A DNA stretch of 64,000 nucleotides from Simmondsia chinensis. Lineage: Eukaryota > Streptophyta > Magnoliopsida > Caryophyllales > Simmondsiaceae. The notes under the pieces are model-generated. The model saw nothing but the letters and a program-made list of their open reading frames with translations. It ran no database searches and was not told the origin of the DNA. A program made the translations under genes and the position numbers. The stretch covers positions 38,132,750 through 38,196,749 of the forward strand of contig JAGTTD010000005.1 of the NCBI GenBank assembly GCA_018398585.1, read 5' to 3'. Shown piece after piece: positions 11,881-63,010 of this stretch (positions are counted from its first letter, which is position 1; every line of letters begins with the position of its first letter).

Positions 11881-11906
11881 GGATGAGGAGAGTATGGAGG
11901 TAGCAA

Positions 11907-12587: not shown

Positions 12588-12724
12588 CGTTGGGGGACCT
12601 CAGAAACAGTCTTTTGTCAAGGTCTCACCCTGATGGGGTAAGACTGCATACATCCTTCCCTTCCCAGGTCCTGCCCGAGCGGGAGCCCTTCAGGCACTGG
12701 GTTTGTTGTTGTTGTTGTTGTTGC
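12588..12724 (+). mobile_element. Au-like SINE, 5'-truncated
   Basis: Tail type common to the window: GTTGGGGGACCTCAGAAACA, then GGGGTAAGACTGCATACATC, the GGTCCTGCCCGAGCGGGAGC hairpin region, GGCACTGGGT and a (TTG)n terminus. No TSD was identified with confidence. Confidence 0.8.
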
Positions 12725-14805: not shown

Positions 14806-14940
14806 ACAACAACAACAACAACAACAGTCCCAATGCCACAGAGGCTCCCGCAAGAGCGGGGTCTGGGGGATGGATGTACGCAGCCTTCCCCCTTCCGGGT
14901 AAAAGAGAGGCTGTTTCCGCGGATCCCTAACCTGAAGATA
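14806..14940 (-). mobile_element. Au-like SINE
   Basis: On the minus strand: AACCTGAAG-type head fragment, GGATCCGCGGAAACAGCCTC, GGGGGAAGGCTGCGTACATC, ACCCCGCTCTTGCGGGAGCC, GGCATTGGGACTG and (TTG)n. This is one of the best-preserved tails in the window. Confidence 0.85.
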
Positions 14941-23801: not shown

Positions 23802-23904
23802 CAACAATAACAACAACAAACACAGTGCCTCCAAGGGCTCCCGCATAAGCAGAGTCTGGAGGGTAGATGTATGTAGCCTTCCCCCCTCAGGGGCCTACCC
23901 TGAA
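23802..23904 (-). mobile_element. 5'-truncated Au-like SINE with a 22-bp TSD
   Basis: The tail only: (TTG)n end at 23802, GGCACTGTGT equivalent, GACTCTGCTTATGCGGGAGC, GGCTACATACATCTACCC, ending at about AGGGTAGGCCCC. A 22-bp TSD with one mismatch lies at 23780-23801 and 23905-23926. Truncation with an intact 3' end and a long TSD is the signature of LINE-driven target-primed reverse transcription. Confidence 0.92.
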
Positions 23905-24267
23905 GATTTTGTGCAATAGTGAGGTATTAGGTTTAAAGCTCGTAGGATCTTGAACTCAAAACTCATATCCCCTTTTCCCTCGATGTTGGCAATATTTTAC
24001 TATTTACCTTTTAAAAAAATATTTTTTTTGAACATTAAAATGCCTTAAAAAAACTTATTAACTGTATATTTAATTTGCAGTAAATTGTATAATTGGAAGT
24101 GTTGTTAATTTATAAAAATAACTGATTTAACGTTATATTAGTAATATTTGATATAAATCTAAGTATCTATATTTAATATATTTGGTCTGTTAACTTCGAA
24201 ATATTACACATCTAAGGACCTGGTAAAAATGCGTACACAAGGATGACTTTGTTCCATTAAATGAAGC

Positions 24268-30600: not shown

Positions 30601-31545
30601 GAAAGGTATGTAGCCTTACTCCTAAAGGGATGTTTCCGAGGGACGAAAAAAACCTATGTTTAGTTGAGTGATCCGTAAATTTTCCAGCTCCTGTTTTGGA
30701 ATCCCCGCCCTTTCCCTCTCACCCTAAGCAAAGTGTCTTCTATACTTGGCAGTGATTTGGCTGGAGTCGAATTTATTGCTTGCTTACAGCTATGCTACTC
30801 CAAATTCAGCATTGACATGGCATGTTTTTAGGCATTAAACTTGGCTATTTGCTATGATTTTCGATGTAGTTGGTGCTACTTTAAAGTTCAGATATGTGCA
30901 ATATCGTTATTAGACTTTTAGTCACGTATCTGTTGCAATGAATACTGAGCCAGATGAGACTGTTGGTTGTTTGATCATTTGATGTTATTGAGCATTATCA
31001 TGTTTCCCCGGTTTTGTTTTCGACTTCCTTAACCTTATGAACGTATTTTGAATGCCCTCATTGCTTCTACGTACAATTTACCCAAACATGTGACTATGAT
31101 GACATATGGTTGGAGGTCCTCGGATACAGCCTCCCTTTGGGATAGCGCCCTGAAGGGGTAAGGCTGTGTACATCTCACCCCCCAGACCTTGCATTGGTGG
31201 GAGCTTTTGAGCACTGGGTTTTTTTTTGTTGTTGTTTTCTTGAGTTGTCTTCATTTGTTAGGGAATTCTTGCCTCTTTGTGGCACTGGGTTTGTTCTTCT
31301 TGTTGTTTGACATCACAACTTTTTGGGTTGGCTAGATCTCTTGCTATTTACTAATTGATGTAGTGCAACTTGGTACTCAAAAGCTAAAAATTTTATTTTT
31401 TTCGAAAATTGAAACTAATGAATTACAAAGCTATATTTATAGAAAAAGCTTAATTCTATTGGACAACAACAAACCCAGTGCCACAAGGGCTTCTGCCAAA
31501 GCGAGGTCTTTTTCTTTTTTTTTTTTTTTTTTTTCGCAGGGGCCG

Positions 31546-44960: not shown

Positions 44961-45268
44961 CTCCCTACATATTCTAAACCGTGTCTTATACTATTTCTTT
45001 GAACGAACTATATAAATTTAAAATATCATATTTTCTCTTGCTTTTATTATGTGATTGCTAATTCGATTCAAAATATGATGTATCTGGGTGGCCATGACAT
45101 AAGCAAGCAAGAAATACAATGGGAAACTTAGGCTCTAAGGCAACCGCAAAATAAAAAAAAAAAAAATGATTTATAAATATGCAACTACATACAAGTAAAA
45201 AGGAGCTTTAAATTTATTATAGACAAAACAAAAGGTTTAATTTCTCTTGCAATCTTGGACCCATATTT

Positions 45269-45464
45269 CGAAGTTAAGCGTGTTTGGGCGAGCGCAGTAC
45301 CAGGATGGGTGACCTCCTGGGAAGTCCTCATCCTCAGGTTGGAGGCACTCGGAAACAACCTCTCTTCAGGTTAACACCCTAAAGGAGGAAGACTGCGTAC
45401 ATTCGCCTCTCAGAACCTGCGTAGGCGGGAGCCCTTGAGGCATTAGGTATGTTCCTTTCCAGTG
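45269..45464 (+). mobile_element. 5S-rRNA-headed SINE, copy A (5'-truncated)
   Basis: Begins inside the 5S-like head at CGAAGTTAAGCGTGTTTGGG and continues GATGGGTGACCTCCTGGGAA, both diagnostic of plant 5S rRNA. It then joins CCTCAGGTTGGAGGCACTCGG, CCTCTCTTCAGG, GGAAGACTGCGTACATTCG and GCGTAGGCGGGAGCCCTTGAGG, the Au-like tail. It is flanked by a 14-bp TSD with one mismatch: TTGGACCCATATTT (45255-45268) and TTGGACCCATACTT (45465-45478), showing it moved as one unit after truncation. Confidence 0.92.
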
Positions 45465-45695
45465 TTGGACCCATACTTGATGTTGTGTTCACACTTTTAT
45501 ATGGTCCATTCCATCTCTTCAAAGGCATTCGACAAAGTTGGAACGGTACCGTTATCATGATATCTGAACTAAATTTTTTCAAAAATTTTAAATCTTAAAG
45601 TCACTTATTGTAGATATTGAAATCTTAGGTATTTAAGTGATAAAATATTAAACGTAGAGTTCTGAATAATAAATTCTCAAAAGAACATTACCAGG

Positions 45696-46216
45696 TATGA
45701 AGGAACCATCTATTTCAAAAGCTTAAGCTGATGGGTGAAGGCCCAGGATTGATTTTATACTCTAACATGCCCCCCACACAAATGCTCGTTTGGGCTTGAA
45801 GCAGGATACTGCATAGGCCCACCTCATACCTTATGCTTAAATTGTTTTTAATATTAAAAGTGGGGATTGCTGAAATTCAAACTCGTGACTTCTTGGTCAA
45901 CAAGGCTTTGATACCATGTGAATGAACCATCTTTCCCAAAAGCTTAAGCTGATGGGTGAAGGACCAAGAATAGCTTTATACTCTAACATGCCCCCTTACG
46001 TGAATGCCAATTGGGCTTGAAGTGCGGATAGTGCACATGCCCACTTCATACCTTGTGTTTTTTAATTGTTTTTTTTAATATTGGAAGTGGAAGCCTATTG
46101 AGATTCGAACTTGTGACCTCTTGGTCATCAAGGCTCTGATACCATATCAACGAACCATCATTCCCAAAAGCTTAAGTTGATGGATGAAGGCTTAGGATTA
46201 ATTTGATACTCTAATA
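45696..46216 (-). mobile_element. Tandem TRIM with three LTRs
   Basis: Three 72-bp LTR copies (45696-45767, 45917-45988, 46145-46216) alternate with two internal regions (149 and 156 bp), each internal region having a TGGTATCARAGC-type primer-binding site. The outer flanks CCAGG (45691-45695) and CTAGG (46217-46221) are a TSD with one mismatch, so this is one insertion enlarged by LTR-LTR recombination rather than two insertions. Confidence 0.9.
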
Positions 46217-46224
46217 CTAGGACA

Positions 46225-46395
46225 GTTGACCAGAACACGACCCAAATGACACAATTATTCATGCAAAAAAAAAAGGAAAAAGCTAAAAAACACCAAAAAA
46301 AGGGGCACGAAGAAGCCACGAGAAGGGATTCAAACCCAGGCCTCGCGCATGTTGGGCTCACCCATCCCCCATCTGAGCTACCATTCCCTTAGTGA
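46225..46395 (-). mobile_element. tRNA-derived SINE-like element
   Basis: On the minus strand GGGAATGGTAGCTCAGATGG (box A-like) and CCTGGGTTTGAATCCC (box B) lie about 45 bp apart at about 46325-46395, followed by a T-rich body with A-runs to about 46265. The stem ends do not pair as a tRNA, so a retroposed tRNA relic is favoured. Confidence 0.55.
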
Positions 46396-47724
46396 TTTAT
46401 TAGGGTAAATAAAATATTTAAATATTTTTGGATGATGTCCACCCATGCGTTTTCGTCCCCTATTTTCTCGTGACGTATAGCACTACTAATAAAAAGGAAA
46501 AAGGTTAAAGAAAAACGTTAATCCAGCCCAACGGTCAAATTTTGCAAAAAATAAATGAGCCATGTTGAGTGTCAACATATAGAATCAGTTTCTCTTCTTC
46601 GCTTTACTTTTATTTCTTGCATTCATATATATTTGATAATTTTTGCTCTCGTTTTAGTTATTGACTTTTAAGTTAGGTTTTCTTCGAAGAGCATAGGTCA
46701 TAAAGGAAAGAAAGAATGAAAAAAAAAAAGGAAAAATAGTTAATTCTCTTCTCTCTTCTCAAAATTACGATGCTCAGTCAGTGTGATGCATCTCCTCTCA
46801 AAAGCCATCTCAACTGTTCATCATCATCACATCGACGAAAAGGAATGCACCAAAAGAAACACAAAATGGAGCCACAAGATCGCTTCAAGTGTCCCACTAG
46901 AGACCCACGAGGAAACATCGCTTGACCGGGGAAAGATGTAAACCCTCCAGCATGTATCCCTGCATTATTCACCTTTTAGTGCCCGACGAATATTTCGACC
47001 ATATGAAAATTCTATAAATATAGAAAATTGTACCATCCATACATTTTATTTTCAGAAAGACTTATTACAGAGATTCAGAGAGGAAGCTGACAACTTCACG
47101 TTTCATGGTATAACCTACAAGATGAGTAAATAGTTAGAATGGCCTGCGGGTTTTAACCGTAGGGGAACCATCCGATGCCTAAATTAGTAAGCTATTTATA
47201 GAAGTTTAGGCTAAGGCTTGCTTGCTAGGAATTTTGTACTGGGACACTCGATATATATACTAGGAAATGGGTACAAGAAACTTGGTACTAGGAACTCGGT
47301 AATGGGAGCTTGGTACTAGGAACTCAGTGTACCGACCTCGATACTAGGAACTCGATATTAGGAACTTGAAACTAGACATTGAGTACAAGGCACTCGGCAT
47401 TGGGAGCTTAGTACTCATAAATTAGAGCTCGGGATTAGGGTTGGACATAACTCCAAGCGACCCACACAGCCACTTGGGGTCCGAATTTTAGGGTCCAAAT
47501 TTTCGGGATTTTAATTTTTTAAAATATCAATGCTTAATATTAATAAGTTTTATCATTAAAATTTTCATAATCTATTATATATAAAAGTTTTCATTTAAAA
47601 ATTTTACTTAAGATTCAATAATGTCAAGACCGACCCTCCTCAATACTCGCCCCGATGCAGGTACGCCTAGTTGTGCGTAGGTCTCGCTGCACAACGAAAG
47701 CCTGGGCCATAATGGGCCGCAGAA
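46396..47724. other. Intergenic DNA with a GGTACTAGGAACT minirepeat
   Basis: 47240-47420 holds about ten imperfect copies of a 14-17-bp unit around GGTACTAGGAACTCGG. It follows a segment with CCGATGCCTAAATTAGTA and CTATTTATAGAAG, words common in LTRs, so it may be the 3' part of an old LTR. No gene recognised. Confidence 0.5.
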
Positions 47725-48170
47725 CATATGAAGAAACAGAGACTGAGTTGGCCCAAAGTAAATAGGCCCAATACGAGTATGGAGTGGATATTCATCTCTA
47801 TTCGTGGGTATCTAAAAGATATCCCTTACCCACCCTATAACCGTCCTAATATGCCTACTAAACGATTCCGTATTAATTTTTCAATACTACTTTTAAGAGT
47901 ACAATTATATTTATAATAACAATGATAAATAATTTAGATAATTGAATTTAAGCACATATTTTTTTTTAAATTTGAAATTATTTAAATATATAGTGGAGTG
48001 GGCATGGGGTGGGGCGGGTATAACATTATACCTACACGCATCCCATATCCGCAGTGGGTATTGGCTTTGAGTACTCGACCCGTACCCACTATCCGCCTCA
48101 CTCTATACGTGCTCCAAACGGGGTGGATACCCGGAAGTAATAGGTTTTATCTGCACCATTACCATCCCTA
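47725..48170. mobile_element. hAT-like MITE, TAGGGATGGCAATG family, right end clear
   Basis: The right end, reversed, is TAGGGATGGTAATGGTGCAG, and the interior has the family's GGGTAC/CCCGCC motifs. The left end (near AGGCCCAATACGAGTATGG) is diverged and no TSD was found. Confidence 0.55.
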
Positions 48171-48509
48171 CTCAATTATAGTGCTTTGTCTCTTTCTTCT
48201 ACCTAAACATGTGAAGGGCGAGCAGCGTATCATTTTGAAAATCTTGGGAAAGTAATATTTTGTATGTATTGTATTATGATTATTCCTATGGTGCAGGACA
48301 TTCCTTATTCAATCGATATATGTGACTTTACCCTTTAGAACATCACTTGCATCATACTTGGACTTGTGTTAAGTTTCCTAAAGAATTGGCTTTTTATATC
48401 TGCTCGTGTTACTCGGTTTGTCTTACTAGCTCCTCAGATGTGTTTATCAACACTACTATTGTTCGTGTTAAATAATAGCAAACTGCTTATGTTTTTTCTA
48501 CCAACACAC

Positions 48510-48511
48510 AC

Positions 48512-48552
<41 letters not shown>
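48510..48552. repeat. (ATA/AAT)n microsatellite
   Basis: About 14 uninterrupted AAT trinucleotides. Confidence 0.95.
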
Positions 48553-48553
<1 letters not shown>

Positions 48554-48839
48554 TTTTCATAAGTGAACACTCAAGCTTATATTTTATGTGATATTTTTTT
48601 TTTGAGCAGAACAAAGCCCATGTAATGTATTCTTAAACTTTGTTCTAATAGAAATACTTTTAGATTAACTAAGTTTTTGTATTTTCTTTTCCATGATATT
48701 TTTTTTAACATTAAGACATTAAAAACATTTTCTTTCATTTTATATTTATATTTGGTAGAAGATTTTTTTTTCTTCTGTGCATCCCATGTGTCCCTCTCTC
48801 TTTATATATATATATATTTTTTTTTCCCCTTCACATATT

Positions 48840-50315
48840 GAGCCGTTGCCCGAAATAGCCTAAAAAAAAATATTACCCAAAATAACATATTTGTAATATT
48901 ATTTCCTAAACTAGCCTCTATATCAACAATTTTAATTTTTTTTCTTTTTTTTGTTTTCTTTTTGAAAAAAAGGTGGCAGGGTGGCAGACTCTGCCACTTT
49001 TTTGTTTTTTTTTTTGTTTTTTTATAAAATTATTTATTGAATAAAATGGTAGGAATGTTGTCATTTAATTTTGTATAAATTAAATAAAACATATAAATTT
49101 ATTTACTGTTATATTATATTTATCTTTATATGACCTTTAAATTTATTTTATTATGAAACTATGGATTTAATAAAATATATTAATTTTTTATTATTATGTT
49201 ATATTTAGTTTTATAGTATATGTTTTATCCAAATTGCATTTAAATTATGTATATAATTAATAATAAAAAATTTAAATTAAGTTATTTATTAAATATTATA
49301 TTATATTATTTATAAATATTTTATAGGTTATTTATTATTAGAGCTGTCTAATAATAGTCTTATATATGTTCATATAACATTTAATATAAATTATTATTTT
49401 TAAAAAACTATACAATGTAAATTTTCAAATATTATTATTTTTAAAGGCCTATATAACATATACTTCTATTATCTCCAGAATTCTTTGCTGTTAAAAACAT
49501 GTATTATTGTTCCAAATTTTCGAGAGAAAAAATTTTCTAAAATTTTTGAATTTCAATAGTGTTAATTTTTTTTTTTTGCAACATATATATATATATATAT
49601 TATGGAATATAAGATATTAAAGGTACCTCATTATATATATTGATATGTCTAGATATCTATGTGATAAATGATAAAATTTTAGAGTACCTAAGAAATAATT
49701 TTTTAATATCTTAAAAAATATTACATAATTATTTATGTATTTATATAATAATTAAAAGATTATTGTTGAGAATGAAAGAAGAAAGTTATATTAATAATTA
49801 TAAATTTAAAATAGGATAGGAGTTAATGGCCTTTAAAAATAATAATTTATGATAAATTTTATTTTAAAAAATTACTATTATTAGATAGTTTTATTAATGA
49901 GAAAAGTATAAAATTATGTATTTATAATAAAATTTAATATTTAATAAATAACTTAACTTTAATTTTTTTTATTATAAGTTATATACATTATTTAAATATA
50001 ATTTATATATTGTAAAAAAAATTTTAAATAAATATGTTGTAAAGATAAATGTAATATAATAATAAACAAATTAATATATTTTATTTAATAAATAATTTTA
50101 TAAAAAAATAAAAAATAATAAGTGGCAGGGTCTGCCACCCTGCCACCTTTTTATTGAAAAGAGGTACCTCCCTCGAGCGAGGTACCCAAAAACAAAAAAG
50201 AGAAAATAAATAAAAAATTAAAATTACTGACGTGGATACTAGTTTAAGAAATAATCTTACAAATATATTATTTTAGGTAATATTTTTTTTTTCAGGCTAT
50301 TTCGGACAACGGCTC
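48840..50315. mobile_element. Mutator-like foldback element, 1.48 kb
   Basis: The ends are GAGCCGTTGCCCGAAATAGC and, reversed, GAGCCGTTGTCCGAAATAGC. The perfect 9-bp TSD TCACATATT lies at 48831-48839 and 50316-50324. Inversion continues inward: an AGGTGGCAGGGTGGCAG...TCTGCCAC block near 48970-49000 faces GTGGCAGGGTCTGCCACCC near 50121-50145. AT-rich words such as AAAGATAAATGTAATATAAT on the right mirror ATTATATTTATCTTTA on the left. Each arm appears to be about 700 bp. No protein is encoded. Confidence 0.85.
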
Positions 50316-50339
50316 TCACATATTTCTATTCTTCTAGCT

Positions 50340-50760
50340 TGGAGTCATTACCTAAAATGACTTTAAAAATAAAAATATTACCTTAAATAACTTACTTTAA
50401 AAAATATTTACCACACTAACTCCCACCATGACATTTCTCAAGTTTTTAAAATTTTTTTGCATTTTTTTTTATCAGAATTTTTTTTAAAATTAATACCCCC
50501 TATTGGAGGGAGGTACTGCAAATGTCAGCACATTTTTTTGTAGGTTTTTTAAAATTTTTAAATAAAAATATTAATAAATTAAATATATTAATTCTAATTT
50601 TATTATTATATTATATTTAACTTTATAATGCACATTTTAGTTAAATTATAAACATAATTTATAATAAAATATTTGATTCAAAAAAATTTATAATAAAATA
50701 TATATATATATATATATTTATTTATTAATATTATGTATGTATTTTGCTTGAGAGTACAGA
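50340..50760. repeat. Partial MITE arm related to the neighbouring element
   Basis: Begins GGAGTCATTACCTAAAATGA then TTAAAAATAAAAATATTACC, similar to the left arm at 13325. No matching right arm was found. An (AT)n run is at about 50698-50716. Confidence 0.45.
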
Positions 50761-50799
50761 GTTGATCTTATCTCTACTAGTTGCCGTAGTAAAAAGGCC

Positions 50800-52063
50800 T
50801 TGGGTTGGAGAGAGTTCTCAAGCAAACAAATCGAGGTAAGTACTCTTGCATAGTTTTTAATTCTTTTTAGGTTCTGTTTGTAATTACAGTTGTTAGGATG
50901 TTAGTTATCTTAAAATTAATATTAATTTGATATAATTTATATTTGATTTGAGTGATATTTGATTAAGATTGAATTACTTAAATAAGTTTGATCTGATCTG
51001 ATTTGATATTTTAAATTAGATTAGATCTATGTAATTCGATTATAAATAGGGCTTAAAGTTGAGCGGTGAGATGGAGAAAAAAAATAGAGGGGAAAAATGT
51101 GAAGAGTTTCAGTGATTTGTAAAGGGTATCTGGGGCGGGGGGAAAAATGAGATATTGATGTTGAGACGTATTTTAATTGAGATGCATTAGTAAGAGTTTT
51201 GTAGCTTCTTTTATCAAAAGTTATGTTGTGAGAGGGTTGGTGGCTCCCCGTTCAAAATCTATATTAAGGAGGGTTTGTGACTTGCCGTACAACAGTTATA
51301 CTTTGAGAGGGTAGGTGACTGTGCAATATTCACATTGATGTTGGGCTTGTCGGTTATAATTAGATATTGTAATTTCTAAATTTTATAGTGGATGAGGCAT
51401 CCATTTGGATCCCGTGGTTTTTTCCTCTGGTTGAGATAGGATTTCCACGTAAATATCAATGTGTTAATTTTTTTTGTTTTTCGCTTCCATGTGTGCTTAA
51501 TTGCGATTATTTCCAACTGTTTGTCTTATGGTTTTCCCCTCTATCTTAGAGGCTCTCCCTGTTTGAAAATAAGACTATTGAGCAATCAAAATTTGAACTT
51601 TAAGACAAACAAAAGGAGCCCGAGACAGACAAGATGTATCAGAAGAACGAACCCTAAACTTCTAGAATTTTGTGATTCTTTGTCTTATCACGATGAAATG
51701 ACAAACAATTTCTTATAGTATGTAGGTATTATCGATTGGAGAAGGTTTGTCGCGATGTAATCAAATTTCGCTGATCTCATATATAGTGTCGTAATCATGT
51801 GTCATATCTATATTTTAGGATTAAATTTTCCTCGTTTTTGACAAAGCATCACCAAAAGCCTGCCATAGGATACATATGTGATAACATTTTTAAATCTTAG
51901 TGCAGTTTATTGTGTATATTAAAACCGTGCGGTAATTAAGTGATTGATTCTAACAGTAAATATACCAGTTCTTTTATTATCTGTTCAATTACTCATTCAT
52001 CTGTTTATTCCTCTCATGCTTTTGTAATGTATGTTAGTCATTTTGTGATTGGTCAGATTCATC
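50800..52063 (+). promoter_or_regulatory. Promoter/5' leader region of BAHD gene 1, possible leader intron
   Basis: A strong donor-like GAG/GTAAGT at 50836 and an acceptor-like GTGATTGGTCAG at 52056 could delimit a 1.2-kb 5'-UTR intron ending 7 bp before the ATG at 52064. Within it, 51170-51460 is an LTR-like fragment in plus orientation with GGTTGGTGGCTCCCCGTTCA subrepeats and GGATCCCGTGGTTTTTTCC, matching 7335-7690. Splicing is inferred from sequence only. Confidence 0.4.
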
Positions 52064-54156
52064 ATGGCAATAGTCAAAATATCAGAATGCGTCATCAAGC
52101 CAGAACACATAGTAGAGACGGCAAAGCATCATTGCTACTTGGGGCCAACTGATCTAGTCATGCTCTCCATGGATTACATGCAAAAGGGTTTCCTATTTGT
52201 CAAGCCTCCACCTACAAATAACCAAGAAGTCCTGGTCCCGGTTCTCTTAGAGAAGCTTAAACGCTCCTTATCTATTGCCCTTACACATTTTTACCCGCTA
52301 GCTGGTCAATTAGAGACGCAGGTAAATGAGAGAAACCATTCTTGTTTGGTATGTATAAACTGCAACAAGGGCCGTGGGGCGAGGCTCATCCATGCGACCG
52401 TAGACATCACAATGTCGAATATTCTCTCACCTGTAGATGTACCTCTGGTGGTGCAGTCCCTTTTTGACCTAGGTGAAAGAACAATAAACCATGATGGCCA
52501 CACCAAGCCGTTATTGTCAATTCAGGTAATAGAGTTGGTTGGTTATGTCTTCATTTTATATCCTAAGAATCATCATGTCAATGAACCTTTTTCTGTTTCT
52601 CGATCACTAATCAGTCATAGATTAGCACTACAGAAACTCCTTGTAAGTTTCGTCTTTGATTTCTTCTGTAAAATTAAGCGAAGTTCAACTGAAGCCTCAT
52701 TCGAATTAGTTATTAGTCACATATATAATTATAATCGTTATATAAGGAAAAAAAAAATCATGTGATCCTTAGGGCAACAAATGTGCTACGTAGTGTGTTG
52801 TCGCTATTCAAGGGGTTTCAGTGAAATTATCGAATTTAACATGACCTACTTATTGAATTGGTAGTGACCCTCAATCCTACCCAATCAATAAACAAATAAC
52901 TTGCAAGTTTCTTATTTAACTAATTGGGTACGAGTTACTGGACAATTTAGCGACTTGCCAACAATATGAACTTAGAAATGAAGATATGTCATAAGTTTAT
53001 ATCTTCTTTATAATTTGTAGATAAAAGGGAGGGCGAACCTATAGACGATTTGTCAAACAGTTCCATAAAGTAAAATACAAAAAGTTGCAACCTCTTTGTC
53101 AAACAATTCCTAATTAACCTAAAACTAATTATAGGAGTAAATACGAAAGGTAAAATATCAAATACAAAAGTACAAAATACGTAATATTTCAACGGTAAAA
53201 TTCATCACTAAATCACATATTTTTGGAAATGATGATTTTCAGCAACCTATCCTTGTTGTTTGTTGATCTAGGTAACAGAGTTGGTAGATGCCATCTTCAT
53301 CGGTTGTTGCATGAATCATTCTGTTGCTGATGGGACCTCTTTGTGGCATTTCATCGATGTGTGGTCTAAGATATTTGAAACAAATTGTGAAGACACCCTT
53401 ATTTCGAATCTACCTATACACCAACGTTGGTTTCTTGACGGCTATGACCCACGCATCAACCTTCCCTACATCCACCCAGATGAGTACATAACAAGATGGG
53501 AACCACCTCAACTTAGAGAACGGATCTTCCATTTCTCCCCCGATTCCATGGCCAAGCTCAAGGCAACAGCCAACGCTGAGCAAGGAGCACATGATATCTC
53601 CTCCTTTCAAGCATTGTCGGCCCTTATATGGCGGTCTATAACTCGAGCACGATGCCTAGAAAGCAACCAAGAAACATGTTGCTGGATAGTAGCTTCAAGC
53701 AGGCACAAACTAAACCCACCTTTACCAAATGAATCCCTCTGTAATGCCCTTTACGGACCTAACGTCACTCTCATGACAAGTGAGCTACTAGGGAGTGGCT
53801 TGGGCCATGCTGCACGTCTATTAAACCAAGCAATCAAGAACCAAGGTGTAAGTGACTGGATGAAGAGTTGGATGGAGTCTCCTTTCATACCGAAAACCGG
53901 TTGGACCTCACCAAATAGTGTGCTCATAGGTGGCTCGCCTAGGCTCGGCACTTATGGTCCATTGTTTGGGCTAGGACAAGCCAAGGCGATTCGTAGTGGG
54001 TACGGGAATAAATTTGATGGGAAGGTAACAACCAATGTCGGGACCCAAGGGAGAGGAAGTGTGATTGTTGAGGTCTGCCTTTTGCCCCATGTAATGAGTG
54101 CACTCGAGGCAGATGAGGAGTTCACTGCCGCCTTCATTTTACCTTCTCATGCATGA
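52064..54156 (+). CDS. BAHD acyltransferase, gene 1 of a tandem array
   Basis: Two exons, 52064-52525 and 53272-54156, with a phase-0 GT-AG intron after Gln154; 448 residues, normal for BAHD enzymes. The family transfers acyl groups from CoA thioesters to alcohols or amines in the cytosol. The HxxxD motif is intact as HSVAD (170-174) in CCMNHSVADG; YFYPLAGQ-type sequence HFYPLAGQ (75-82) is typical. The protein resembles the uncharacterised At3g50280-type branch (MAIVKISECVIKP start, LSMDYMQKG). Unusually, the C-terminal DFGWG is LFGLG (395-399): the Asp and Trp are gone, though flanking AIRSGYGNKFDGKV is well kept. No stop or frameshift. The start at 52064 is preferred over 52049 because genes 2 and 3 begin at the same relative position. 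Reading straight through the donor gives a 238-residue frame, discussed under findings. A retroposon fragment begins about 35 bp past the stop. Confidence 0.9.
52526..52594 (+). pseudogene. Decayed copy of the exon-2 start inside the BAHD gene 1 intron
   Basis: The first 69 bp of the intron, in frame with exon 1, read VIELVGYVFILYPKNHHVNE. The true exon 2 starts VTELVDAIFIGCCMNHSVAD. They align without gaps with V, ELV, F-I, NH, V and a later S in register (10 of 23 residues over the aligned block, about 41 of 69 nucleotides by eye count). HxxxD would be HHVNE, so the copy is not catalytic. Confidence 0.6.
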
Positions 54157-54190
54157 TCAAGCGCAGCACACACGATTTTTGGAGTAAGCT

Positions 54191-54330
54191 TTTTTTTTTT
54201 TTTTTCGATAATTAGCGATAAAATCGCGGAACAAGCAGGCTATTCGACAAAGCGAAACCTGAAGTCACTCGAACAATAGCGGGGGAAATTTCCTTGAATG
54301 ATGTCTTTTTTTTTTTTTTTTACCGGAGTT
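54191..54330 (-). mobile_element. Poly(A)-tailed retroposon fragment
   Basis: A T-run then TCGATAATTAGCGATAAAATCG, CGGAACAAGCAGGCTATTCG: the 3' terminus of the 17104-17366 family on the minus strand, strongly 5'-truncated, just downstream of BAHD gene 1. Confidence 0.7.
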
Positions 54331-54483
54331 AATCCATTTTAGACGCAAATTTATCGATATAAATTTTCTGTAAGTCAATGACCTTTTGACTAAGTTATTA
54401 GTTGAATTATTCATAACAAAAACAAAACAATACAAAAATGTGTTGCATCCCATCATATCTTGTGTATATTGTCATTGTTGCCC

Positions 54484-54720
54484 CTACCAAAGAGGGCACC
54501 AACACGACGTCACCGGATCCCATTAGAACTTCGAAGTTAAGCGTGCTTCGGCGAGAGTAGTACTAGGATGGGTGACCTCCTGGGAAGTTCTCACCCTCCA
54601 GTTGGGGGCACTGGGAAACAGCCTCTCTTCAGTTGAACACCCTGACGGGGGAAGGCTGCGTACATCCACCCCCCCAGACCCTACGTAGGCGGGAGCCCTT
54701 GAGGCGCTGGGTATGTTCCT
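54484..54720 (+). mobile_element. 5S-rRNA-headed SINE, copy B (full length, perfect TSD)
   Basis: A 237-bp unit in a perfect 17-bp TSD TATTGTCATTGTTGCCC (54467-54483 and 54721-54737). Head: GAGGGCACCAACACG, CACCGGATCCCATTAGAACT, AAGTTAAGCGTGCTTCGGCG, AGTAGTACTAGGATGGGTGA, CCTCCTGGGAAG. This is plant 5S rRNA almost from its 5' side through box A, intermediate element and box C. Tail: CCAGTTGGGGGCACTGGGAA, CAGCCTCTCTTCAG, GGGGGAAGGCTGCGTACATC, CCCTACGTAGGCGGGAGCCC, GGCGCTGGGTATGTTCCT, i.e. the Au-like tail without the (TTG)n terminus. It lies between BAHD genes 1 and 2. Confidence 0.95.
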
Positions 54721-54765
54721 TATTGTCATTGTTGCCCTTGTATGATGCTCTGCTTCCAAAAATGC

Positions 54766-55230
54766 TATAAAAAAGGATTTTTTTTATTGAAACTACCTAA
54801 ATTTTAGGTACGGTTTTAAGAAATCACATAATTTTTTTAATTTTTTAAAGTCCCATCTAAAAATTTTTAGTATCATATCTTAATGTTAACACTGTTAGAA
54901 TCAGTTAATTTTTGTAGACGTGACTTTTGAAAAAAATAAAATAATTTAAAAATTTTGAATTTAATTTAAAATAGTTTAAAAAATATTTGAAATATCTAAA
55001 AATTATAAGTATTTGAAAGATAATTTTTATATTTGAATAAATATTTTTTTTAAAATGTCACGTAAGTGAAAACTAACGGATGTTGACGGGTGTTACATTA
55101 AGGTATGACATTAGAAAACTTTAAAAAGTTTAAGTGTGATTTTAAAAACTAAAAAATATAGGTATTTTTTTAAAATTTAACCTAAAATTTAAGTGGTTTT
55201 AGTTTAAAAAAAATCCTTTTTTTTTATAAT
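54766..55230. mobile_element. AT-rich MITE, family of 4242-4698
   Basis: The inverted ends are long: TATAAAAAAGGATTTTTTTT then AAACTACCTAAATTTTAGG on the left, mirrored on the right by CCTAAAATTTAAGTGG and AAAAAATCCTTTTTTTTTAT. Internal GTTAATTTTTGTAGACGTGA faces GTGAAAACTAACGG. A TA target site is possible but ambiguous. Confidence 0.7.
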
Positions 55231-56170
55231 AGAAGTAATAAATTTGACAAAATATGTCAATTGATGACAGATGAAATAATAATTAAACTATTGTTTTCTT
55301 ATTTTTAATTTTGAGTATAATAATTAAACTATTGTTTTCTTATTTTTAATTTTGAGTATTCAATCAAATAACTACATTAGTTACATATATTTAGGGGTGT
55401 GAGAGAACTGCATCCAACCAATTGAGCATGCCCTTGGTCGAACATGAGATCGATAAGGCATTTGAGTCGAGCTCTTATCAATCTTTGAACCTTTGTTCGA
55501 GCTCAGTTCAATAAAATTTTAACTTGTTCAAAACCTGAGATAATCCAACCTAAGGGACCTTAAACCGAGATATGTCAAAAACTAAAATGATGTGGTGTTA
55601 CTTATTTCGATCGGGACTAGAAATGACGCAACTTGATTCATTTAAGAACAAGATGGCTCGAGCCCTAAATTACCTTACCCAACTCAAACATGACCCATGT
55701 TATCGAAGACCAAGAACGATCATATCTAATTTGCAAAGAAAACCGCTACAACTTGAGCATGATATGATTTGACCCCACTGAACTCGATTCAAGTTGATCC
55801 AAAGCTTGAAATGAATCAAATCTGAAATAATATGATCTGAAATGGTCCAAGTAGGACTAATTGATGGTTTGTGCAAGAAGGGACTGTATTATTTTTAAAA
55901 GTGTATTCCCAAAGGCAAAAGCTAGTGTACGAGATGAGAAGAAGCTCATGCGCCTCATTTTGGCGCATGGGCTAGGATGTTCTAAGACTTTCTTACTGTA
56001 GGGATCGCTACAGGACTTCCCTATTGTGCTTTCCTTGAGTCTTCTATAAATATCTCTGTAGCATTTTACTGTTTATTATCAAAATTAAAGTCACATCGTA
56101 ACGGAGCATTTACTCTTATTCTCAACGGCTCTTACTCTTCCTTATAATCCATTGCCTTCTTATCTACACA
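55231..56170. other. Intergenic DNA, LTR-like segment at the right
   Basis: A 55-bp stretch (AATAATTAAACTATTGTTTT and following) is directly repeated at 55279-55310 and 55319-55350. 55920-56110 (CTTCTATAAATATCTCTGTA, then TTATTATCAAAATTAAAGTC) has the look of an LTR leader. No gene recognised. Confidence 0.4.
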
Positions 56171-56177
56171 ATTTTGG

Positions 56178-57480
56178 CATGAAGGACCTTACTTCTCTTC
56201 ATTACTTCCTGGTTATTGAGGCAATATGAATAAACTGAACAATTTTTCGCCAATGCATATACACTATTGACCTACTAACCAAACACGATACGAAAGAGGC
56301 AAAACCTGTTAAAACACCTTTTCTAGTCCGGGTACATTTGTCATTGAGTGATTTAGATCTAATTGATGACACAACTGAGTATAGAAGTGCAATCAATGCA
56401 CCCCAATACTTAACAATGACCTAACCCGAGATTTGTTATGTTGGTAACATTGCCTCTTAGTTCGTGCATGCTCTTCGGTTTTATCAGTTGGCAGGTTATG
56501 AAACAGATCCTATGGAACCTAAAGGGCACACCTGATCATGATATCACCATCCTACCCGAGCTCTACACCACCATATTGCTTTCATTTATGTTGATTTGAG
56601 GTGGATGCCTCTCCACTCGCTGCTCCACCATCGACAATGCCCTTTTTTGACAACCTAATCTCATTTCTCAGCGAGCGAAAAAGCAGGCGACAGTTGTTGA
56701 TGCAGCAGCGCCAAAAAAGATAATAGATTTAAAAACTTAAGTCTTTAACAACCTTTCTTTAAATTTCTATTGCAAAAGCTAATTAGAAACAAAGAGAAAA
56801 ATTCTTAATCTTAATTCTCTTACTAAAGAACTAGAAAGAACAAAATAATTAAAAAAAAATCTAATATTAAAACTGAATCAAAACCCTAATCAGCCATCCT
56901 CTTTATATAGAGGAGCTTTTCTAGCTAAATTTAAAGTCTTAAATAAATAAAAATAAAAATAAAAATAAAACAATTTTATCTAAATACATCTCCTATCTTT
57001 AAGATAGTTAAAATAAGGATAAATCAAGCAAATGTAGCCTAATCTAGCCAATTCGCATCTTCCCAACTATAAGACTCTTACGAGGATCAAAACTCTTAGT
57101 CGCCCATCCCTCTACCTACCGAGATAGGGGGTTGCATCAGTTGTTAAGTCCATCACTGAATCTAAATATCTCGCCATTTTGCAAGCCGTTGTCAAAAGTG
57201 ACTAGGTTCACTACACGATATGAGACTTGGGACTTCGGCAATCACGCCCCAATACGTATGCTGTGTCAATGCCTTAGCTACCTATATTGCAGCTAACCCT
57301 GTCTCACACAATCACACCGAACATGTTGATGCTAACTATCACTTTTTCCTCAAGAAGGTGTTAGTTAAAGAGTGATCTCTAGAGTTAATACAGTCCACTA
57401 TGAAGCAAATTTTAGAAATCTTCATCAAAGGGCTTTCCACTGATTGCTTCAAATTTCACAAATCCAATCCACACACAGGT
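56178..57480 (+). pseudogene. Ty1/copia pol relic (RT end to RNase H), split by a solo LTR
   Basis: With frameshifts and stops the plus strand reads MKDLTSLHYFL, LLTKHDTKEAKPVKTPF, TEYRSAINAPQYLTMT, PEICYVGNIAS, HALRFYQLAGYE and AKKQATVV. After the solo LTR (56699-57139) it resumes VVKSITESKYLAILQAVV, then AANPVSHNHTEHVDANYHFF. These follow the order of copia reverse-transcriptase C-terminus and RNase H (canonical SAKKQATVARSSTEAEYRA and HVDxxYHFxR). It is non-functional by multiple lesions. Confidence 0.8.
56699..57139 (-). mobile_element. Solo LTR inserted in the copia relic
   Basis: 441 bp, TGATGCAGCA...GTTGCATCA, in a perfect 5-bp TSD GTTGT (56694-56698 and 57140-57144). Same family as 20162-20588, including CTCTTTATATAGAGGAGC in the corresponding place. 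It interrupts the RNase H sequence between AKKQATVV and KSITESKYLA. Confidence 0.88.
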
Positions 57481-58247
57481 CATTTGAGTAAGGTCATTTT
57501 GAATTTTTATTCAAATTTTAGACAGACTGGGCCTTTTCGTTGTAATCATATTGAGTTTTGGGCTAATTTTTTATTTTAGGTTAATAAAATTAATATAAAA
57601 TTACTATTCTTTTCCGTACCTCAAAAAATTAGTATATGGTCTTACTTAAGACCTAATTTTATGATTTAAGTATAGGACTGTAATTTTAGTTCTAACAGAT
57701 AAACAAAATAATAAAATTAAAAATTTTTAAATCAATTCCCGAGAGAGAGAGAGAGAGGGGCCAAGAGCTTCTTACATATACAACGGAGTATGTTGAGCTG
57801 GAAAGATGAGCCTAGAAAGCACTTTGCGCTCTCGACTTAGCAATTGATGAAGTCCAGGTGTTCAAATCCTAATATAAAAACATAAAAAGATAAAATTGTA
57901 CATGATTAAAATGATGTCGTTCTTGATGTCTGGCATTAAAGTTCGACTCTATAATTATTCCTCTATTCCTGAAAGCACTTGGATGCAATTTGAACTAAAA
58001 CGTTAGCATTTGTAGTCCATTTAAAATGCGCCAAATATAATTAATGGGTAATTTTATGAACATATTATATTGGTTAATTAAAGGTACTTGTCGCATGTCA
58101 ATTTTTTGTCTAAAAATGATTTCTTCTCGCAGGAGAGAATCTATTTATTAATACGAACAAAATCTAAAGCATTAAAAAATGGATCAAAAAGGTGGCTTTT
58201 TTATTAGTTTAAGAAACGTTGAGTGATTAAAAAGTGAATAACTTTTA
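57481..58247. other. Intergenic DNA, nothing recognised
   Basis: AT-rich; includes a (GA)n run at about 57740-57757. No gene or delimitable element. Confidence 0.45.
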
Positions 58248-58255
58248 ACTATAAT

Positions 58256-58631
58256 TAGGGGTGTGAATGAGATCACGAGCTAGCTCGTCTTAAAACTGGA
58301 AAAGCTTGGCTTGCTTTGAGCTTGAGCGGAGCCGAGCCGAGCCGAGCCGAGCCTAATCCTAGGGAAGCTTAAGCTCGTCTTTTAGTATAATATATTTGTT
58401 TAAATATTATCTAATGAAGTCATATTAGAGTCCAATAAATTGAGCCCGAGCTTAAATAAGCCTAAACGAACCTATATTGAGCTTAAAGGAGCGTAAATAT
58501 TACAAGCCTAATTTAAAGTTTCCTGAGTTTAGATCGAGCTGAGCCTGAATCCTTAAAACTAACAAGCATCGCCTTGAACCTGATATACTTAAGCTCCAAC
58601 TCGGGCTCGGCTCCGCTCAAATACATCCCTG
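58256..58631. mobile_element. hAT-like MITE, GAGC-rich family, copy 2
   Basis: 376 bp with ends TAGGGGTGTGAATGAG and, reversed, CAGGGATGTATTTGAG. Flanks ACTATAAT (58248-58255) and ATTATAAT (58632-58639) agree at 7 of 8. It contains tandem GCCGA units (GAGCCGAGCCGAGCCGAGCC) and shares its interior with 3598-4020. Confidence 0.78.
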
Positions 58632-59773
58632 ATTATAATACTGGAAGCGGTGAACCAACGTGCCACTGCTACCAACCGTCATATTTGACTTTTGTGGAGC
58701 AAGTGACAAGTGTTATTTAAGTTGTCAACAACAATTTGATGATAATAATTAAAAAAATATTTTATGACGGCTAGGATAACGATTATATTAGACACAGTGA
58801 AGTACATTATACATGGCCTAGATTATATGCGAAGACTTTAATATTTAATGTATTAATTTTTTAGTTTATAAATATTTTATGATAAGGCATTTAAAAAAAT
58901 GTTTTTTAAAATATATATTTATTTTGTAAATATTTATAATTTTTTTAGATAATTAGAATATTTCTTTAAATGTTTAATAGATTTTAAAATTATTTTAAAT
59001 GCAAATTCAAATTTCTTAAATTATTTTCTCTTATTTCAAAAAAGTCATGTTTAGGCACTAACATTAAGGTTTAACATAAAAAAGTTTTAAAAAATTTAAG
59101 TATGACATTAAAAAATCAAAAAATTTAGATAACTTTTTAAAATCGTACCTAAAATTTAGATAATTTTTAATTAAAAATTATAATTTTATACCTTATCAAA
59201 TATTTCTCAACAACCACCCCACTACCTTAAGCTATATTTTTTTAATAATGCCATGCCAAACACATAATATGATAAAGTTTACTCTGGCAAAGAGATCTTC
59301 ATTTAGTCACTCTTCATCATCTCATCAAGAGGTGAGTGTCTTATCATCAACTCATGATGATTGTATGATCACTTCCAATACAAAATTGGTGAGCCAATTG
59401 AAGTGGAGCCTGAGAAAATTCACGAGAGCAAGAAAAAAAAAAAAAACATAGCAACAAGCCCCAATAAGTTGTTGTTTGCTTGTTGTATTTGTCAGGGCTC
59501 GATGATTTCAGAGTTTTTATAGGTTGAGTATTCGTTTTCTTCCTATTTGTTTTGTTGGTGCAATCTTTGATTATATCGCAACAATTTTGCTCCTTCTTTT
59601 GATTTATTGTTTCGGTTTTGATCTCATTTATTGATCTTCTTTTTTCTTTCTTTTCGACTTCTGTACAAAGAATTCGTTGACACGGAAAATATTAGCTGTT
59701 TCGTGATTGATATTCTCCTCCTTGGGGAAAACCTCAACATCATTAGTTGACTCGTATCCATCTCAAATTCATC
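58632..59773 (+). promoter_or_regulatory. Promoter/5' leader region of BAHD gene 2, possible leader intron
   Basis: 58830-59190 is an incomplete AT-rich MITE. Near the gene, a donor-like CAAGAG/GTGAGT at 59331 and an acceptor-like CTGTACAAAG at 59670 would define a 339-bp 5'-UTR intron. Gene 3 has a comparable pair. The sequence between them shares words with the gene 3 leader (TTGTTGTTTGCTTGTT; GTCAGCTGTTTC-like end), so the leader was duplicated with the gene. Confidence 0.4.
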
Positions 59774-61770
59774 ATGATGGTGACTAAAATCTCGGAGTGC
59801 CATATCAAGCCAAAACGTGGTGTTGAAGAGGCAAAGCAGCCTTGTTACTTGGGACCAGCAGATCTGATCTTGCTTTCTATGAATTACATGCGAAAGGGTT
59901 TACTATTTTCCAAGCCTTCACCTACAAAAGACCAAGAAAACCCGATCTCAATTCTTTTAGAGAAGCTTAAATGCTCCTTATCTATTGCTCTTACTTATTT
60001 CTACCCATTAGCGGGGCAAATGGTGACATGGGTAAACGAGAGCAATCACTCTTGCTCAGCATTTATAGATTGTAATAAGGGACCCGGGGCTAGGTTCATC
60101 CATGCCACCACAGACACCACCATGTCGAATGTTCTCTCATCGGTGTATGTACCATTGGGGGTGCAATCCTTTTTCGATCTCAGGGAGAGAATAGTAAACT
60201 ATGACGGTCACACTATGCCTTTACTATCGATTCAGGTAATGAAGTTGATTATGATTCATTTTATGGCTGTTGGAAACCTCTTCCTTTTAAATACTATGAT
60301 AATATATGTGATGTAGTGGTGTTATATTATTGCAAAATTTTGAGACAATAAATCTATCATTTGTTAGGTAATAAAACAAGCACCAACAATAAAAGACTTT
60401 AAAGCATATAGCAAATTACTTTTTTTAAGACTTATTTTGTTCTTACAGAAATAATATCGGGGATAAAATGAAATCAAAATAAAAAGTGAGAACGGATGCA
60501 CAGGGAATGGATTTCTGAGATTGAAGAACAAGAGTGATAAAATGTTGTGTGATATATTTTCAATCTTGAGAATGAAAGAAGTATTTATAGTTTTTCAAGT
60601 GTCTCTTAGAACAGATATATCTCTTCACATGAAGAGACACATCTTTCACTAAGAGACACCAAATTTTTTTTAATTATGTTAAAAATACAGCAACATTATT
60701 AAACCGTTATGCTGATTAGTTGCTAGTAATATGTGATGCGATACCAAGCCAACATTGTTGATTTAGATAACAAAGTTTGATGATAGTATCTTCACTGACG
60801 GTTGTTATATGAATCAAGTTACTGTTAGTGGAATACTTCTCTGATTAATAACAATAATAATTGAGTCTTGTTGTTGATTCAGGTGACAGAGTTGCTAGAT
60901 GGCATCTTTATCGGTTGTTCTATGAACCACTCTATCGTTGATGGAAACTCTTTATGGCATTTCATCGATGTGTGGTCTGAGATATACAAAGCTGGTAGCC
61001 AAGACATAGCCATTTCAAACCCACCAATACATCGACGTTGGCTTCCTGAAAATCATGACGCTGTCATAACCCTTCCATACACCCACCTAGATCAGCACAT
61101 AACAAGATGGGAACCACCCCAACTTAAAGAACGAATCTTTCATTTGTCCGCTGACTCTATGACCAAGCTCAAGGCCATGGCTAATATTGAGAACAACACT
61201 CTTGAAATATCCTCATTTCAAGCCATGTCTGCTCTGATATGGCGGTCAATAACCCGAGCTCGGCGCATAGAAAATGACCAAAAAACGTCTTGTTTTCTGG
61301 TGGCATCAAGTAGGCACAGAGTTAACCCACCCTTACCAACAAGCGCATTTTGTAATGCAATATATCCACTTGAAGTAACTCTCAAGACTAGTCAGCTACT
61401 AGGGAGTGGCTTGAGCCATGTTGCACGAGTATTACAACAAGCGATCATGGATCAAAAACCATGGGACTGGATGAAGGATTGGATGGAGTCCCCTTCTATA
61501 CCCAGAACTGGTTGGACTTCACCTAGTAGTGTGCTCATAGGGGGCTCGCCTAGGCTTGGCACATATGGTCCATTGTTCGAACTTGGACAAGCCAAGGCGA
61601 TTCGTAGTGGGTATGGAAATAAGTTTGATGGAAAAGTGACAGCGAACCAAGGGAATCAAGGGATAGGAAGTGTGGTTCTTGAAGTGTGCCTTTTACCACA
61701 TTTCATGAGTACACTCGAGTCGGACCGTGAGTTTATGGCTGTTGTTACTTTACCTTCTTTGACATATTGA
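59774..61770 (+). CDS. BAHD acyltransferase, gene 2 of the tandem array
   Basis: Exons 59774-60235 and 60883-61770 with the same phase-0 intron position as gene 1 (after Gln154); 449 residues. Start MMVTKISECHIKPK; the first of two adjacent ATGs is taken because it aligns with genes 1 and 3. FYPLAGQ (76-82) and HSIVD (170-174) are intact, so transfer chemistry using the HxxxD histidine remains plausible. DFGWG is replaced by LFELG (395-399), one change more than gene 1's LFGLG. AIRSGYGNKFDGKV and the C-terminal VCLLPHFMSTLE are conserved. The reading frame is intact. Substrate cannot be inferred. Its intron (60236-60882) holds a decayed exon-2 fragment and a TATA-bearing LTR-like stretch around 60400-60680. 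Confidence 0.9.
60767..60845 (+). pseudogene. Decayed duplicate of the exon-2 start in the BAHD gene 2 intron
   Basis: Following TTGTTGATTTAG, a copy of the normal acceptor region, the sequence reads ITKFDDSIFTDGCYMNQVTVSG before a stop. The real exon 2 reads VTELLDGIFIGCSMNHSIVDG. Position-for-position similarity is clear at the nucleotide level (GATAGTATCTTCA against GATGGCATCTTTA; GGTTGTTATATGAA against GGTTGTTCTATGAA). His of HxxxD is Gln, one codon is extra, and the frame ends in TGA. It lies 37 bp upstream of the real exon. Confidence 0.8.
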
Positions 61771-62730
61771 TGAAGTTGATTTACGAGCAGAGTATGACTG
61801 GGATGTTATTTTGGTTCTTTTTTTTTTTTTTTTATACTTTGTCCTGTAATATTTAAAAGAAATGCATGTACTTGCAGATGAAACATATAAAACATATAAC
61901 AAAATGCATTACTTTACCTAGTGTAAAAGAACTAGGGTGATCTTTAAGGGCGAGCTATGGAATGTCGACAAGGCTTGTGGGAGTAATACAGATGAGGATA
62001 GGGTTCTAGATCTGTGTTTGATGCATAGGATTCCCCTACAGCTCTAATAAAGTGGCCAAATTTATCGATTGTATTAGGTGTTAGTCTAATTAACAGTGAG
62101 GCTTCTGTATTCTGGGGCCGATTGTACTAGTTGTTTGTTGGCCTTTGATTCCTATTTTCTTTTTTTGTTGATTTGACGTTTTTGCACTTGGCTCTTCATG
62201 CACTTGTAAGTTTTTGTACTTACTCAATTATCGAAATAAAAAACCCTTAAACTACTATTCACCACATCGCGCTCAATTTTTAGGCACCTATTGTTTAAAA
62301 TATAAATGTTATATTATATATTTCATTATGTATAATTTTATACATATAAATTTATTGATTTATAAAAGTAAATTATTTAATATTATTTTTTAATGTAACT
62401 CAATTCCTAATATAAATATATAAATTAGGATAGACTTCGTCATGCTATTACTTTCTAGAAGCAGCAAGTGTTCAACTGAATAGAATATGTCATGTATTTA
62501 TATATTAAATAGTTTCAAATTATGATTAGCCTACAAAAAATATTAAACAATTATTCTTTTAATTAATTTACAAAAATAATGTTTAACGAATCAATATCAG
62601 GAAACTAATAAATTTAAGATAATGTTATAATCAAGACAAAATTATTATTATTAAAGTAAGATCGCTATTTTCAAGATAATTTTATAACTTTCTTTTTTTT
62701 TTTTTTTAAGTTACATTAGTACTTTAATAA
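61771..62730. other. Region between BAHD genes 2 and 3
   Basis: Presumed 3' end of gene 2, then about 62090-62240 of T-rich DNA ending TACTCAATTATCGAAATAAAAAA, which resembles a LINE-type 3' terminus in plus orientation. The remainder is AT-rich with no gene. Confidence 0.45.
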
Positions 62731-62997
62731 CCCAAGAGGGTACCAACACGCAAGCATCAGATCCCATTAGAACTTCAAAGTTAAGCGTGCTTCAGCGAGA
62801 GTAGTACCAAGATGGGTGACTTCCTGGAAAGTCCTTGTGTTGCACCCCTCAGGTTGGGGGTTCTCGAAAACAACCATCCTTCAGGCTAGCACCTTGAGGA
62901 GGGAAGGCTGCGTACCTCTACCCCCTCCCCGCACGGATCCTACTTAGACGAGAGCCCTTAAGATACTAAAAATATTATTATTTTTTCTTTTTTAATC
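62731..62997 (+). mobile_element. 5S-rRNA-headed SINE, copy C (full length, TSD)
   Basis: Starts CCCAAGAGGGTACCAACACG, then ATCAGATCCCATTAGAACTT, AAAGTTAAGCGTGCTTCAGC, GTAGTACCAAGATGGGTGAC, TTCCTGGAAAGTCCTTGTGT, TGCACCCC, then the tail CTCAGGTTGGGGGTTCTCGA, GGGAAGGCTGCGTACCTC, and an A/T-rich end. It keeps more of the 5S 3' side (GTCCTTGTGTTGCACCCC) than copy B. TSD AGTACTTTAATAA (62718-62730) and AGTACTTTGATAA (62998-63010), one mismatch. The 5' start coincides with copy B. Confidence 0.93.
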
Positions 62998-63010
62998 AGT
63001 ACTTTGATAA

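Follow-up and report, generated by a model that had tools for sequence, protein, structure and literature searches.

Three 5S-headed insertions at a jojoba locus

The whole stretch of DNA analysed here, referred to as the window, comprises 64,000 nucleotides of the jojoba (Simmondsia chinensis) genome, from position 38,132,750 to 38,196,749 of the forward strand of contig JAGTTD010000005.1 (assembly GCA_018398585.1). It harbors three insertions of a short interspersed element (SINE), copy A (45269–45464), copy B (54484–54720) and copy C (62731–62997), in which a head resembling 5S ribosomal RNA (rRNA) is joined to a body and tail that match the 3′ end of a long interspersed element (LINE) of the same genome, and each insertion is bounded by its own target-site duplication (TSD) (Table 1). 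A first-pass annotation made from the sequence alone had called these insertions with the same ends and TSDs, and all three are present. As it also stated, the heads of copies B and C agree from their first point, copy A is 5′-truncated (covering positions 47–237 of the B-type consensus described below) and the three copies have a junction between head and body in common. Its description of this junction as the same in every copy holds on the body side; on the head side it does not, the B-type head being 8 nt shorter than the C-type head.

When compared with Rfam, copy B matched the 5S model with 64.1 bits (E = 3.7e-11; 54492–54599) and copy C with 48.1 bits (E = 6.1e-7; 62736–62848), in both cases over model positions 1–120. 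At the gathering threshold the truncated copy A gave no 5S match, and no family besides 5S was found in the window. We consider it very probable that these copies belong to a SINE family composed of a 5S gene head (~119 nt in the C-type) and the 3′-terminal ~125 nt of an RTE-clade LINE that resides in the same genome.

Table 1 5S-headed SINE copies, their TSDs and body-only copies in the window.
Feature	Position	Strand	Basis
Body-only copy, TTG-repeat end	12589..12707	+	body match
Body-only copy, TTG-repeat end	14823..14935	-	match from junction
Body-only copy, 5′-truncated, TTG repeats	23815..23906	-	body match
Body-only copy, RTE LINE 3′ end	31108..31219	+	body match
Body-only copy, TTG-repeat end, RTE LINE 3′ end	32435..32554	-	match from 1 nt off the SINE junction
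Copy A 5′ TSD, TTGGACCCATATTT	45255..45268	+	13/14 match to 45465–45478
Copy A head, 5S-like, B-type, 5′-truncated	45269..45334	+	91.1% to B consensus positions 47–237 (whole copy)
Copy A body and tail, probably RTE-LINE-derived	45335..45464	+	match to B consensus and LINE 3′ regions
Copy A 3′ TSD, TTGGACCCATACTT	45465..45478	+	14 bp, one mismatch
Copy B 5′ TSD	54467..54483	+	17 bp, perfect
Copy B head, 5S-like with internal promoter region, B-type	54484..54598	+	Rfam 5S; 94.5% to consensus
Copy B body and tail, probably RTE-LINE-derived, ending in TATGTTCCTT	54599..54720	+	consensus and LINE 3′ match
Copy B 3′ TSD	54721..54737	+	17 bp, perfect
Copy C 5′ TSD, AGTACTTTAATAA	62718..62730	+	12/13 match to 62998–63010
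Copy C head, C-type, 5S 3′ end complete	62731..62849	+	Rfam 5S and consensus alignment
Copy C body and T-rich tail, probably RTE-LINE-derived	62850..62997	+	consensus and LINE 3′ match
Copy C 3′ TSD, AGTACTTTGATAA	62998..63010	+	13 bp, one mismatch

A dispersed family with two subfamilies

We searched the genome (831 Mb, 35 contigs) with copies B and C as queries; the copies scored and fetched are the best-scoring ones of each search, and this applies to all consensus-based results below. Copy B gave 4,634 first-look candidates, the best 40 of which comprised copy B plus 39 further copies that span nearly all of its 237 bp with 92–94% identity. Copy C gave 6,487, the best 40 being copy C and 39 others at 81–89% that cover most of the query; the two totals may overlap and represent candidates, not copy numbers. 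The B-type consensus, built from 39 copies, is 237 bp long, with a mean divergence of 3.0% to the consensus and 5.5% between pairs. The C-type consensus is 248 bp long and rests on 21 rows (20 fetched copies and the window copy), the fetched 20 differing by 17% pairwise. Because its copies differ more, the C-type is probably the older of the two, as judged from best-scoring copies of both.

The subfamilies differ at the junction. In all 21 C-type rows the whole 5S 3′ end, GTGTTGCACCCCT, precedes CAGGTTGGGG, and the junction lies at consensus position 121. The B-type head lacks GTGTTGC plus a single C from this stretch, which places the junction at position 113. All 21 C-type rows and all 39 B-type rows keep their junction when at most 3 mismatches in 20 are allowed, and 13 of the 21 C-type rows start exactly with ACCTAAGAGGG. 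The family is therefore a SINE as usually defined: short, non-coding, uniform at its 5′ and 3′ ends and dispersed in many copies. The first-pass annotation had proposed a 5S-headed SINE family whose genome-wide copies would have a common start and junction; both are present in the fetched copies, and TSDs recur there as well.

To estimate abundance, we sampled 20 random stretches, each 10 kb long, from 20 of the 35 contigs (658 of 831 Mb). These 200 kb contain five 5S-headed pieces (three in L048 and one each in L052 and L056), which scales to about 21,000 5S-headed pieces in the genome (Poisson range ~7,000–49,000).

The head corresponds to a whole 5S gene

The true 5S genes of the host form two tandem arrays on C8. 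A search with the 5S model returned 51,838 first-look candidates, and 46 of the best 47 scored lie on C8, the other one on C29. The arrays occupy C8:4685657–4702430 (L088) and C8:6396691–6414603 (L089), their units are mostly ~435 and 421 bp long, and the two genes read from them differ in a few places.

Aligned from its first nucleotide with the arrayed gene of L088, the C consensus head requires no gap and agrees at 104 of 119 positions, and it comprises the whole 119-nt 5S gene joined to CAGGTTGGGG. Of the 15 differences, eight fall in nt 1–12, four in nt 13–49, two in nt 50–97 and one beyond. Nucleotides 50–97 hold the 5S internal promoter region (box A, IE and box C); with two differences there, the RNA polymerase III (pol III) promoter region is conserved in the head. 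The C-type has CATTAG and AAGATGGG in common with the genes of both arrays. At positions 79 and 95 it carries C where both array genes have T, and the head is therefore not an unchanged copy of the present array sequence. The B consensus, compared position by position with the arrayed 5S gene, differs at 19 of the first 105 nt; an alignment with free end gaps places a 6-nt shift near the start instead of those differences. Among 15 sources compared with Rfam, 13 gave 5S matches over model positions 1–120, whereas L048 and L056 gave none. Seven of the matches cover 118 nt; two of them were displayed as alignments, and both open at the first nucleotide of the element (ACC).

Body and tail match the 3′ end of an RTE LINE

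The body also occurs on its own. Among body-only copies taken from the window and the random sample, the longest matches open at B-consensus positions 111–116, around the junction at 113, and most continue into TTG repeats. One such copy (L065) is preceded by what remains of an RTE-type reverse transcriptase (RT), recognised by eye; a Pfam search of this degraded LINE piece gave no match. With the same piece as query, the genome yielded 13,770 first-look candidates, the best 150 of which were scored, and we examined the 3′ regions of seven of these 150 LINE copies, six of them picked for long open frames. In six of the seven the body is present ~0.5–1.0 kb downstream of the end of the RT match; it runs from C-consensus positions 114–121, that is, from the junction at 121 or at most 7 nt off it, to position 243, and TTG-type repeats follow. 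The LINE copy L099 encodes an endonuclease (EN) domain (PF03372, 8.2e-7) and an RT domain (PF00078, 1.7e-35), and from this make-up and the TTG tail we presume the clade to be RTE.

The 60 nt upstream of the body appear to differ between the LINE copies, except in the near-identical pair L093 and L095; several body-only copies have a weakly similar LINE 3′ untranslated region (UTR) upstream in common. These comparisons suggest that CAGGTTGGGG is the start of the LINEs' own conserved 3′ module. An RTE-dependent SINE is recognised by a 3′ end that it shares with a resident RTE LINE, and six of the seven LINEs examined here show it. The tail, which the first-pass annotation had called Au-like without identifying its source, is the 3′ end of a resident RTE-clade LINE.

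TSDs and insertion signature

TSDs were scored by comparing the 5′ and 3′ flanks of the same copy, with 5′ flanks re-paired to the 3′ flanks of other copies as the control, and a score of at least 10 was taken as a strong TSD. We analysed 39 B-type and 20 C-type copies, the latter being 20 of the 39 loci listed and having short flanks of ~40–80 bases. Strong TSDs were found in 30 of the 39 B-type copies as compared to 3 of 780 control pairs, and in 13 of the 20 C-type copies as compared to 0 of 400. Two B-type loci (L028 and L029) have an identical TSD and represent one duplicated insertion, which leaves 29 distinct B-type TSDs of 10–20 bp (median 18).

A T stretch ~10 nt upstream of the TSD is reported to mark the insertions of plant RTE LINEs and related SINEs (PMC13295347, 2026). 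The jojoba insertion sites carry this signature. At positions −12 to −10, T accounts for 54 of 87 letters in the 29 B-type loci, against a flank background of 0.319 (p = 7e-9, unadjusted, for the best of 22 windows scanned), and for 24 of 39 letters in the 13 C-type loci, where the same positions are again the highest of 12 windows. Likewise, TTT occurs within −14 to −8 in 14 of the 29 B-type loci and within −24 to −18 in 5 of 29.

Several observations weigh against the reading of a 5S-headed, RTE-mobilised family. The Rfam matches of copies B and C open ~6 nt inside the element, and 6 of the 13 Rfam 5S matches mentioned above span only 105–112 nt; these short matches and inside starts arise because the first 12 nt have strongly diverged from 5S. 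One of the seven LINEs, L096, lacks the body within 1.8 kb. A strong TSD is absent from 9 of the 39 B-type copies and from 7 of the 20 C-type ones. TSDs of plant SINEs of this kind are said to begin with T (PMC13295347); those of the 29 B-type loci open with T in 48% and with A in 41%, the first two bases being TA in 8 of 29 and AT in 6 of 29, so that agreement with this rule is weak. Finally, the choice of best copies enriches for full length and uniform ends; the five randomly sampled pieces diverge by 7–33% from the B consensus, and the junction is crossed in four of them and lost in the fifth (L048, 9667–9592).

Alternative explanations for the chimeric unit

The 5S part could belong to a Cassandra-like terminal-repeat retrotransposon in miniature (TRIM), the likeness to a SINE being secondary, as the first-pass annotation had itself considered. 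Cassandra elements are found widely among land plants and have 5S sequence within their long terminal repeats (LTRs) (PMC10853983, PMC10886601), and related TRIMs produce 5-bp TSDs (PMC10886601). At the jojoba loci, by contrast, TSDs of 10–20 bp (median 18 in the 29 B-type loci) directly bound a 237-bp unit, the 3′ half of this unit is the 3′ end of an RTE LINE and the insertion sites carry the RTE signature. The TSDs of Cassandra, too, are 5 bp long. Moreover, no direct repeats of at least 60 bp bracket the SINE in 11 regions, representing 10 distinct loci, within ~1.5 kb to either side (1.0 kb past the end of copy C); primer-binding sites and polypurine tracts were not searched for. One region (L004) contains a second SINE copy nearby, 76% identical, and in two regions repeats are confined to one side of the SINE. 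With its own TSDs, an RTE-type target signature and no LTR-like bracketing repeat in 10 loci, the unit is very improbable as a TRIM, and we rejected this explanation. More improbable still is that truncated LINEs landed repeatedly beside 5S pseudogenes, or that segmental duplications multiplied a single chimera. LINE tails are indeed often found alone, and the duplicated insertion described above shows that duplication does occur, but 29 distinct B-type and 13 C-type TSDs with one junction per subfamily indicate independent insertions; chance adjacency and segmental duplication were rejected on this ground.

A third possibility concerns the history of the unit: the 5S head may have been added to a tRNA-headed SINE that already bore the tail, and not to LINE RNA. 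A chimera of 5S rRNA with a tRNA-derived SINE has been proposed for HaSE3/HaSE1 of a moth (PMC3272025), and the first-pass annotation had described the tail as Au-like. On the other hand, ARAGORN detected no tRNA-like gene in 264 kb, made up of the window plus the 20 sampled stretches, a search that decayed heads would escape, and several body-only copies are preceded by LINE 3′ UTR sequence. We regard such a head swap as unlikely, and favor the direct joining of a 5S gene sequence to the LINE 3′ end.

Proposed mechanism and origin

Taking the observed anatomy, TSDs, LINE 3′ end and insertion signature together, we infer how the element would be transcribed, recognised by LINE protein and founded. 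TFIIIA and pol III would act on the 5S internal promoter, with initiation at the first nucleotide of the element, so that the transcript would begin with ACCAAAGAGGG or ACCTAAGAGGG and run across CAGGTTGGGG. Since no run of four T precedes the tail (there is none in the B consensus and one in the C consensus, at position 245 of 248), pol III would be expected to read through the body to the tail. The RTE protein would then recognise the LINE-like 3′ end of the SINE RNA, nick the DNA ~10 nt downstream of a T stretch and reverse-transcribe the RNA, leaving TSDs of mostly 10–20 bp. The founding event was probably a template switch, in which a reverse transcriptase copying LINE RNA moved onto 5S rRNA.

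A locus on C29 bears on such an event. In L091 (C29:34924400–34925300; the pair at 335–710, C29:34924734 onward) a near-intact 5S copy immediately precedes a B-type SINE; TTTACAAA separates the two, and TATATTAAA flanks the pair on both outer sides. Possibly, this pair is one insertion made by a reverse transcriptase that jumped from SINE RNA to 5S rRNA. That it is a single case and that an adjoining AT repeat makes the flank match less telling both count against it; the pair makes the founding template switch plausible in this host genome without demonstrating that it took place.

A possible rebuilt closing stem

The divergent 5′ end, ACCWAAGAGGG, can pair with CCCTC-AGGT(TGG), half of which is 5S and half LINE. 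The pairing of the 5′ 11 nt with the junction is predicted at −12.4 kcal/mol for the B-type and −12.5 kcal/mol for the C-type, and shuffled 5′ ends pair equally well in 1 of 2,000 and 23 of 2,000 cases, respectively. With the 5S 3′ end alone, the C-type 5′ end pairs poorly (−4.0). The pairing was spotted before it was put to this test and the two subfamilies are not independent; the predicted energies are suggestive of a closing stem rebuilt across the junction. The combined proposal, that this is the first plant 5S-headed SINE and that its RNA has such a rebuilt 5S closing stem, we hold as doubtful. If the proposal is true, the RNA would retain a 5S-like fold, perhaps so that 5S-binding proteins stay bound, and it would become testable whether Cassandra originated in plants when a 5S SINE inserted into an LTR.

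Other features of the window and genome

Two neighbouring BAHD-like (HXXXD-type) acyltransferase genes lie at 52049–54156 and 59747–61770, each consisting of two open reading frames (ORFs), possibly reflecting introns or decay. One of these ORFs has relatives with Pfam PF02458, the best at 52% among the matches listed; the other ORFs were judged by eye. An ORF on the reverse strand at 11163–11906 resembles the abscisic acid receptor PYL2 (best identity 80% among the matches listed). Two tandem repeats were noted, a GC-rich array of 26-bp units (GGTGAGAGGCGAACCCGGGCGGCGAC) at 907–1118 and one of 228-bp units at 45696–46214, just downstream of copy A. Elsewhere in the nuclear genome there are many copies and pieces of plastid matK (on C8, C4, C13, C35 and others), most of them with stop codons. 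Over the 166 residues compared, the protein of one broken copy is 91% identical to MatK of Simmondsia chinensis, the next match standing at 80% among the 120 listed of 2,818, so that the host is probably jojoba or a very close relative.

Comparison with known systems

Plant SINEs are described as tRNA-derived (PMC9033089), or nearly all of them (PMC10741241), and the open-access literature, in its accessible portions, yielded no plant 5S-headed SINE; an earlier description elsewhere is possible. Searches of viral contigs with exact junction patterns gave 0 matches, twice, which has little bearing on plants. The combination of a 5S head with a LINE tail is known from animals, and within the literature searched the plant family appears new. 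Its abundance in jojoba suggests that LINE-driven elements have taken up the 5S promoter in plants as well as in animals. Programs that detect SINEs by their tRNA A and B boxes would presumably miss elements of this kind; AnnoSINE does compare heads with 5S (PMC8825457). Annotation of 5S genes may in turn be disturbed by SINE heads, some of which may be among the candidates of our 5S model search.

The nearest build is that of springhare Ped-1, in which a 5S head is likewise followed by the 3′ end of BovB, a LINE of the RTE clade (table in Ohshima 2013, PMC3747384). Ped-1, likened here by its description, belongs to a mammal, and its LINE and 5S sources would be independent of those in jojoba. 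Among plants, the tobacco TS SINE has ~100 nt of its 3′ end, with a TTG-repeat terminus, in common with a potato RTE LINE (PMC3747384), and is thus similarly a plant SINE with an RTE LINE 3′ end; it is listed as tRNA-type (PMC9033089, table), however, and ends in TTG repeats, whereas the jojoba family has a 5S head and tails of TTCC or T runs. Au and the Angio-domain SINEs are plant SINEs with a conserved 3′ domain (Seibt 2020, via PMC9033089) and differ from the jojoba family in having tRNA heads. The 5S rRNA-derived SINEs (SINE3) of fish, mammals (bats) and insects (moths and a beetle) (PMC3272025, PMC8010984) resemble the jojoba family in their 5S head with a 5S-type promoter, as does the head of a SINE in the fungus Aspergillus (PMC5063351); SINE3-type elements occupy other hosts and have other bodies, and no plant member is named in the accessible parts of these sources. 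Cassandra shares with the jojoba family the status of a plant retroelement with a captured 5S promoter, but it is an LTR element with the 5S sequence inside its LTRs. It has been speculated that Cassandra arose from a 5S SINE inserted into an LTR (PMC10886601), an origin on which the jojoba family now bears.

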